Shown one piece after another: positions 58,573 to 60,753 of a stretch of DNA of 64,000 bases; positions within the stretch are counted from its first letter, which is position 1; the number at the start of each line of letters is the position of its first letter. Origin of the DNA: Ceratodon purpureus (lineage: Eukaryota > Streptophyta > Bryopsida > Pseudoditrichales > Ditrichaceae); assembly GCA_014871385.1 (NCBI GenBank), contig CM026428.1, positions 14,848,476 to 14,912,475 on the forward strand, written 5' to 3'. The notes beneath the pieces are model-generated. The model made no database searches, was not told the origin of the DNA, and saw only the letters and a program-made list of their open reading frames with translations. The position numbers and the translations under genes are program-made.

Positions 58573-60753
58573 ATGGCTCATAATGTGCGAGTCCTTACCG
58601 CCACATTGGTGGTCGTGGTATTGGCCATGTGCGTGAGTAGGACTGAAGCTCAATCTTCAGGCCTGGCGTTTGATTTCTACAGGACGAGCTGTCCTGAAGC
58701 TGAAGATACCATTTTGAGAGTTATGCACCAGGAGTCTCAGAAGGACCCTGCCATCCGTGCTGACATTCTCCGCCTTCATTTCCACGACTGCTTCGTACGA
58801 GTAAGTTTGTTAATGCCATTACAAAGTGTATTTTTGTCCATGTGCTGGTTTTGACTCGAATATGAGGGAATGCAGTTTTGATTTTACTGGTTTCATGTGC
58901 AGGGGTGTGATGCATCTGTGCTGCTGAAAGGGAAAGGGACGGAACGAGTAGCTCCGCCCAATTTCCGCCTGGAGGCTTTTTCGGTGATCGACATGATCAA
59001 GGAGGCGTTGGAGGATGCCTGTCCAGAGACGGTGTCGTGTGCGGACGTTCTAGCGTTCGCAGCCAGGGATGGCGTGGCGCTGGCGGGTGGGCCTAACTGG
59101 GCAGTGCGTGGGGGGCGTCGCGATGGTCTTGTGTCGAAAGCCTCTGAAGCTGTGGCCAATCTTCCTGGGACCGAAATGAATGTGGAGCAGCTCACGGCGA
59201 CATTTGCGAAGCAGGGATTGACGCAAGACGAGATGGTGACTCTCTCAGGTGCGCACACAATCGGTGATTCGGCGTGCGTGCACATTGACACAAGGATCCA
59301 CGGGGAGGTGCCGGATCCCATCCTCCCGCAGGACTATCTGGACGAGCTTAAGTCCACTTGCCCTTCTCCCGGGCGCCGCGTCTTACCTACGGTGCACTTT
59401 GATCGGATGACTGACTCTGTGTTCGACACTGCGTACTATGAGAATCTCAAGGAGAGGAAAGGCCTGTTGACGTCGGACCAAGTATTGTTCGAAGATGAAG
59501 TTACTCGTGGCAAGGTGCTTGCCAACACGAACCAGGCGGTTTTCTTCGAGGATTTCCAGAAGGCCATGTTGAAGATGAGCGAGATAGATGTTCTCACTGG
59601 CACCAATGGAGAGATTCGTCTCATGTGTAAAGAGATCAACCCAGCCATCCGGAAGCCTGACGAGGGAAAGCCCGGCGGCTACGAGGGTTCTGGCTATGGG
59701 CAACCTGGCACTGAGGCACCGGGGAATGAGACGACTGCAGGAGAGAAGCCAGCTGATGAGAATCCTGCAGGGGAGAAGCCCGCTGATGAGCATCCTGCAG
59801 GCGAGGAGCCAGCTGATGAGAATCCTGCAGGGGAGAAGCCAGCTGATGAGAATCCTGCAGGAGAGAAGCCAGCTGATGAGAATCCTGCAGGGGAGAAGCC
59901 CGCTGATGAGCATCCTGCAGGCGAGGAGCCAGCTGATGAGAATCCTGCAGGGGAGAAGCCAGCTGATGAGAATCCTGCAGGAGAGAAGCCAGCTGATGAG
60001 AATCCTGCAGGGGAGAAGCCAGCTGATGAGCATCCTGCAGGGGAGGAGCCAGCTGATGAGAATCCTGCAGGAGAGAAGCCAGCTGATGAGAATCCTGCAG
60101 GGGAGAAGCCAGCTGATGAGAATCCTGCAGGGGAGAAGCCGGTTGGTGAGAAGCCCAAAGACGAGAAGCCAGTCGAAGAGAAGCCCAAAGACGCGAAGCC
60201 TAAAGACAAGAAGACTGACGACGAGGAGGCAGATGATGAGGAGGCTGACGATGAGAAGCCTAAGGACAAGAAGTCGGACAAGGAAAAGAAGGATGACAAG
60301 AAGGGGAAGCCTGCTCCGAGTCCTCCAAAGAAGCCTGCTCCGAGTCTTCCGAAGAAGGCTGCTCCGAGTCCCCCGAAGAAGGCTGCTCCGAGTCCCCCGA
60401 AGAAGTCTGCTCCGAGTCCTCCGAAGAAGCCTGCCCCGAGTCCTCCGAAGAAGCCTGTCCCGAGTCCTCCGAAGAAGGCTGCTCCGAGTCCCCCGAAGAA
60501 GGCTGCTCCGAGTCCCCCGAAGAAGTCTGCTCCGAGTCCTCCGAAGAAGTCTGCTCCGAGTCCTCCGAAGAAGCCTGCTCCGAGTCCCCCGAAGAAGGCT
60601 GCTCCGAGTCCTCCGAAGAAGCCTGCTCCGAGTCCCCCGAAGAAGTCTGCTCCGAGTCCTCCGAAGAAGCCTGCCCCGAGTCCTTCGAAGAAGCAGAAGG
60701 AGAAGGAAAAGAAGAAGAAGGAGAAGTCGAAGAGTAGAAAGGATGATGATTAG
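58573..60753 (+). CDS. Secreted class III peroxidase with a 366-residue repetitive C-terminal extension, 2 exons, 692 aa
   Basis: Heme peroxidase of the secretory pathway and cell wall: H2O2-dependent oxidation of phenolics. Exons 58573-58800 and 58903-60753, GT-AG intron of 102 bases, phase 0. A signal peptide (1-26) ends in SRTEA. The peroxidase domain (27-325) has Arg67 and distal His71 in RLHFHDCF, proximal His194 in LSGAHTIG, and the eight family cysteines (SCPEAE, HDCFVRGC, DACPETVSC, SAC, STC, LMC). It ends at the usual point. Residues 355-494 are 14 decapeptides like AGEKPADENP, 495-545 a Lys/Asp/Glu linker, 546-673 sixteen octapeptides like SAPSPPKK, and 674-692 a Lys-rich tail. Ordinary class III peroxidases are about 320-350 aa. 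The Ser-Pro-Pro units resemble extensin-like wall proteins; wall anchoring is inference. GTG at 58552 is not a start. Confidence 0.93.
59737..60156 (+). repeat. 30-bp coding repeat with a 120-bp higher-order unit
   Basis: Fourteen 30-bp units encode AGEKPADENP and its variants AGEKPADEHP and AGEEPADENP. They follow the order KN, KH, EN, KN three times, then one KN and one diverged unit. The higher-order period of 120 bp indicates amplification of four-unit blocks. Confidence 0.95.
60310..60693 (+). repeat. 24-bp coding repeat (APSPPKK octapeptides), 16 copies
   Basis: Units encode (P/A/S)APSPPKK with single variants (SLPKK in unit 2, PVPS in unit 7, PSPSKK in unit 16). Third-position changes (CCT/CCC) separate units, so the array is not purely recent. 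Confidence 0.95.

Follow-up and report, generated by a model that had tools for sequence, protein, structure and literature searches.

What does a secreted moss peroxidase do with a tail longer than the enzyme itself, and is that tail part of the protein at all? The question is raised by a gene at 58573-60753 (+) of the window, by which we mean the whole stretch of 64,000 nucleotides that was analysed, placed in G000:C8. Conceptual translation gives two exons and a product of 692 residues. The coordinates and reading in the initial annotation were right but for small corrections: it described one open exon running from enzyme into tail, and the tail does lie wholly within exon 2, but the gene itself has two exons, with an intron at 58801-58902. 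The features are as follows.

58573..58800, + strand: exon 1, signal-peptide-like start and then the peroxidase domain up to HFHDCFVR
about 58573-58650, + strand: putative signal peptide, aa 1-26 (by eye)
58801..58902, + strand: GT-AG intron of 102 bases, at the site HFHDCFVR/GCDAS used by related peroxidase genes of the same genome
58903-60753, + strand: exon 2 overall, with the whole tail inside
58903..59655, + strand: remaining class III peroxidase domain, aa 77-327, with the proximal His194 and the other conserved Cys
59656..59739, + strand: Gly-rich spacer, aa 328-355, with the only two Tyr of the tail
59740..60129, + strand: acidic array of 13 decapeptides GE(K/E)PADE(N/H)PA, aa 356-485, with a four-unit higher-order period
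60130..60309, + strand: mixed-charge linker, aa 486-545, opening with a degenerate 14th decapeptide
60130-60159, + strand: this degenerate 14th unit, GEKPVGEKPK, which merges into the linker
60310..60693, + strand: basic array of 16 octapeptides, mostly (P/A/S)APSPPKK, aa 546-673 (confirmed)
60694..60753, + strand: Lys-rich end, aa 674-692, and stop codon (from the translation)

The enzyme part

The N-terminus (MAHNVRVLTATLVVVVLAMCVSRTEA, then QSS) is hydrophobic and, by eye, signal-peptide-like; removing it would leave a mature enzyme part of 301 aa (aa 27-327) in a full mature protein of 666 residues. A Pfam scan matched PF00141 at E = 4e-78, with 262.9 bits against a curated cut-off of 27. 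The intron site is common to the peroxidase family of this genome: extraction from family members gave 16 distinct introns at HFHDCFVR/GCDAS, the gene's own included. When solved structures were searched (PDB), the 25 best relatives were named as plant secretory peroxidases, which from those names we take to be class III, and ascorbate peroxidases ranked far lower; the royal palm, peanut and horseradish enzymes were among the four best.

Identity with horseradish peroxidase C1A (HRP) is 135 of 287 aligned residues. Kept in this comparison are R67, F70, H71, N96, P164, H194 and D268, a set that takes in the distal Arg, His and Phe, the proximal His and Asp, and HRP Asn70 and Pro139; R67, H71, H194 and D268 are taken to be HRP R38, H42, H170 and D247. 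All eight conserved Cys are present (C40, 73, 78, 116, 122, 201, 229 and 318), and both calcium sites are retained in the residues checked (first set D72, V75, G77, D79, S81; second set T195, D243, T246, V249, D251), with the single exception of V249, which is Ile in HRP. What the product has in common with the class III peroxidases as represented by HRP C1A, namely PF00141, a start that by eye looks like a signal peptide, the eight Cys and the catalytic and calcium-site residues (one Ile-to-Val apart), bears out the intact peroxidase domain first described. Its catalytic core looks functional, and by the sequence features tested the product is a class III peroxidase. It departs from HRP at four positions: Phe68, Phe142 and Phe179, which presumably line the access of aromatic substrates, are replaced by Pro, Glu and His, and Pro141 by Thr. 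With the three Phe replaced, the substrate is uncertain and the entry differs from that of horseradish peroxidase.

The repeat tail and its distribution

From P328 the tail, Pro-rich and of low complexity, runs for 365 aa, so it is indeed longer than the 301-aa mature enzyme part, as had been claimed, although the count is 365 rather than 366. The acidic array carries a net charge of -32 over 130 aa (pI 4.05); the 14 decapeptides first counted come down to 13 full units, the 14th being degenerate. The 16 octapeptides of the basic array were found as described, with a net charge of +32 over 128 aa (pI 11.5). Tandem Repeats Finder (TRF) scored the acidic array at 717 (30 bp x 13.9) and the basic array at 624 (24 bp x 16.2), each with 0% indels, which excludes chance for both. 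The acidic units repeat in fours, giving a 120-bp higher-order repeat that looks young, a sign of recent amplification. The spacer holds the sole N-glycosylation sequon of the protein (NET, aa 351). Net charge over the whole tail is -4 and the pI of the mature protein 5.4. Scanned alone, the tail showed no Pfam domain, and a PDB search with it gave three matches, all compositional, cytochrome c1 (E = 1.4e-4) among them.

The genome (362,488,568 bases in 151 contigs) was searched with both the enzyme part and the tail; both searches score best candidates only, and the family was therefore read in part. The enzyme part gave at least 141 matches, and many were single exons. For C-termini, 96 loci were fetched, five were dropped for want of a C-terminal match (L078, L090, L094, L095, L096) and loci sharing a place were counted once, leaving 83 distinct places including the gene itself, each read to the first in-frame stop with further introns disregarded. 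At 82 of the 83 the protein ended 2-47 residues beyond the last-Cys position, without a repeat tail, in agreement with the earlier statement that peroxidases end soon after the last Cys; only the 58573-60753 gene has a long tail. A tail as a common family feature is ruled out for the places read. The closest paralogues among the matches listed have 57-59% identity over about residues 72-323 and stop a few residues past the last-Cys position. A DNA search with the gene and its flanks, which skips simple repeats, found no second copy of the gene, and the tail search, which scored 112 of 5698 first-look candidates and may let weak relatives escape, found no second copy of the tail. Fusion with another gene still present was rejected, no donor appearing among those same 112 candidates. 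As a separate observation on the family, five class III peroxidase genes with equal or near-equal match scores lie on both strands of about 120 kb at G000:C7:13388189-13506619, and C2, C4 and C13 carry similar sets.

Beyond the gene itself the tail search had four matches: its own antisense strand, a BURP-domain protein, a pectate lyase and a tandem array on C3 that looks non-coding. The BURP-domain protein (G000:C4:13618900-13621300, L105; PF03181, 5.6e-45) has many Tyr-rich DKSAYMYKGADDNPAEKQL-type repeats, and its AYMY motif is a possible substrate for peroxidase cross-linking. The pectate lyase (G000:C10:4161976-4163190, within locus L104 at 4160900-4163300; PF00544, 1.9e-19) has an N-terminal extension between a signal-peptide-like start and the enzyme, made up of an acidic head (-27 over 100 aa), a PKK block (+19 over 36 aa) and a PSEEEPTP-type block (-18 over 72 aa), and holding nine PSEE(E/K/N)PTP units. 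Its open frame is 648 aa, against 381-415 for the four others of the five best places; this is one gene read among 25 PF00544 matches, and it was noticed after the fact. The match between the two proteins is probably compositional, which points to similarity of design and not of descent. Used as a genome query, the pectate lyase tail found itself and one C5 tandem array, non-coding by appearance. The pectinesterases gave 127 matches, and in those listed the open frames reach 430 aa at most. The DNA search with the peroxidase gene and flanks also matched C5:11159610, which encodes a protein of EKPKEEEKP repeats in which no Pfam domain was recognised.

A proposed ionic wall anchor and its rivals

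Secreted wall peroxidases cross-link or loosen plant cell walls. Our preferred reading, to which we give about an even chance, is that the product is a chimeric wall enzyme, a secreted haem peroxidase of class III whose own tail anchors it ionically to the wall. The protein would be secreted and its haem peroxidase domain would fold, with the tail extended and disordered, the AP/SP prolines hydroxylated and arabinogalactan possibly attached. The Lys-Pro block would bind acidic pectin (demethylesterified homogalacturonan), while the partners of the acidic block would be the Lys-rich blocks of adjacent peroxidase molecules, or basic wall proteins of other kinds, with calcium possibly involved. 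This would keep the enzyme at sites rich in pectin, perhaps in clusters, and there it could use local H2O2 to couple phenolics or wall-protein tyrosines, or to make hydroxyl radicals. A wall tether of oppositely charged halves had been suggested at the outset; the anatomy fits it (-32 vs +32) and the blocks of the pectate lyase, an unrelated wall enzyme of similar charged design, lend it help, as does the restriction of the tail to one gene within the 83 C-termini read, while the tethering itself we infer. Several points tell against an ionic anchor. With a net tail charge of only -4 and a mature pI of 5.4, the tail may fold back and bind only itself. Tandem arrays form readily, and the higher-order repeat has a young appearance; the matches to the C3 array and the EKPKEEEKP-repeat protein show that such sequence occurs without an evident wall role. 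LRX1 is a precedent in that its extensin domain links it to the wall with no need of Tyr, but in the available part of the source this is ascribed to hydrophobic regions (PMC8160292), a different force. A more speculative extension, to which we attach a slim probability, is that the charge-matched blocks are a self-assembly device: by pairing of blocks with one another and with pectin, peroxidase molecules would form an ionic scaffold of enzymes in the wall, perhaps along with further wall enzymes of similar block design such as the C10 pectate lyase.

The rival that survives best, though we think it rather unlikely, is neutral minisatellite growth, in which two coding minisatellites would have expanded behind a C-terminus tolerant of additions, leaving a translated tail without a selected function. 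Such growth would suit a tail present in one gene only (from the C-termini read and the gene and tail searches) and a young-looking 120-bp repeat, and selection on the repeat units is weakly evidenced: of the 13 distinct changes from unit to unit, 6 are synonymous in this frame where 24% would be expected (P = 0.067), and one antisense frame likewise has 6 of 13 (P = 0.13). It fits less well with two different arrays and a charged linker sharing one frame, and with the codon-like composition of the linker (GC3 0.72; 0.68 in the Lys-rich end). Lys codons in the linker and end are AAG over AAA by 26:3, and 9 of 14 are AAG in the enzyme part. Comparable blocks in a second wall enzyme, the pectate lyase, also speak against neutral growth, as do the equal and opposite array charges, although that equality, seen in one sequence, may be due to selection or to accident.

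Glycosylation offers another reading of the tail. The initial annotation had thought the SPP units might be hydroxylated and glycosylated as in extensins, and this part of it fell: the tail has 14 SPP and no SPPP, neither array has a Tyr, and the two Tyr of the spacer do not form YXY. Tyr-X-Tyr cross-link motifs occur in many extensins, not all. At least two SPPP are demanded by published extensin screens, as described in the available parts of two sources (PMC4769139, PMC5073881), and an extensin-type tail was rejected on these features. A proline-rich protein was rejected too, the tail having no PPV (by eye) and no Cys, where the criterion in the available part of the source is at least two KKPCPP or PPV.[KT] motifs (PMC5073881). 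Arabinogalactan-type glycosylation at AP/SP is a better guess than the extensin type, and the product might be a chimeric arabinogalactan-type glycoprotein (AGP), its AP/SP-rich tail mainly carrying glycans that hydrate or plasticise the wall, with the charges secondary. The thresholds for a chimeric AGP, in the available text of the method, are PAST of at least 60% and a GlycoIndex of at least 0.20 in the AGP-like part, with total PAST below 42% (PMC5266747). By our own script the basic array alone (32 glycomodules in 126 aa) exceeds both of the former, with 74.6% PAST and an index of 0.254, and PAST over the mature protein is 37%. However, the two AGP-like stretches joined as that method prescribes have about 57% PAST, below 60% (index 0.22), the acidic array has merely about 41%, and the units contain Ser-Pro2, which the same method counts as an extensin motif (PMC5266747, as available). 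We regard this reading as quite unlikely.

It is likewise improbable that the tail is missing from the mature protein, whether spliced out, lost to early polyadenylation or removed by a protease. Open frames are cheap in this repeat: over 59740-60753 five of the six frames are nearly stop-free (0-2 stops each, including that of the gene itself) and the sixth has 38, so the open frame is weak coding evidence here, and an acceptor-like tract lies near 60780, a little past the stop. However, candidate splice sites in 59600-60900 score well below the family introns: the best donor is 5.1 (at 60885, beyond the stop) and 4.0 within the tail, against at least 8.5 in the family, and the best acceptor, that near 60780, is 2.2 against at least 14.2, under a model trained on eight distinct donors and 10 distinct acceptors of a single intron site, the gene's own included. 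Taken as a whole, sequence lends moderate support to the tail being coding: both repeat periods are divisible by 3, synonymous changes exceed expectation (weakly), linker and end are codon-like, and the candidate splice sites are poor. That the charged tail merely serves to bring the enzyme together with charged substrates or with partner proteins, with no fixing to the wall, is very improbable: acidic segments do occur in redox proteins, as the weak match to the solved cytochrome c1 recalls, but that match is compositional, and in the tail positive and negative charges balance each other.

Known wall proteins, and the rest of the window

To our knowledge, the placement of individual wall peroxidases within the wall is poorly known. 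A precedent for the proposed anchoring is PRX36, likewise a peroxidase that binds pectin, reportedly through the enzyme's own surface, whereas the anchor proposed for the moss protein is an added tail. In the available part of the source, this class III peroxidase binds homogalacturonan (PMC9141322). LRX proteins and chimeric extensins, as far as the available text of the sources goes, likewise combine a functional domain with Pro-rich repeats that are believed to hold it in the wall (PMC8160292, PMC4769139); unlike these, the moss tail has no SPPP, Tyr-free arrays and strongly charged blocks of both signs. Chimeric AGPs similarly place AP/SP glycomodules beside a non-glycoprotein domain (PMC5266747, available part), but Ser-Pro2 units and an acidic array set the moss tail apart. 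In what is available of the chimeric AGP survey of 47 species, the nine new subfamilies include no peroxidase, and a pectate-lyase-like one is named (PMC5266747). The word peroxidase does not occur in the available main texts of that survey and of the extensin survey of 16 genomes (PMC4769139), and occurs once in that of a poplar survey, in a reference title (PMC5073881). A literature search for a peroxidase with a charged repeat tail returned no named family and no such peroxidase among the best matches listed, as judged from titles and the starts of abstracts; a common moss subfamily with such a tail may yet exist. What looks new is the combination of enzyme and tail, chimeric wall enzymes being already known.

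No classical extensins were found in Physcomitrella, according to the available part of the extensin survey (PMC4769139), so an ionic anchor on a moss peroxidase, if real, would show an alternative, another way to fix an oxidative enzyme in the moss wall. The tail is a separable module, open to deletion or transplant. Should it be neutral, it would still show clearly how coding minisatellites can make a secreted enzyme more than twice as long (from 301 to 666 mature residues).

Elsewhere in the window, a 19-bp tandem array of 13.8 copies lies at 18349-18611 (consensus ACCCGAACCCAAACCCATT), and several open frames at 28056-33095 resemble, by eye, callose synthase exons. The segments 34683-36961 and 47429-49638 form a near-perfect inverted repeat, with 100% identity over 1806 nt and 99% over 398 nt. 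Each arm carries one U1 snRNA, one tRNA-Asp and one tRNA-Gly gene; between the arms, at 41468-46542, are open frames that by eye resemble a Copia-type polyprotein.
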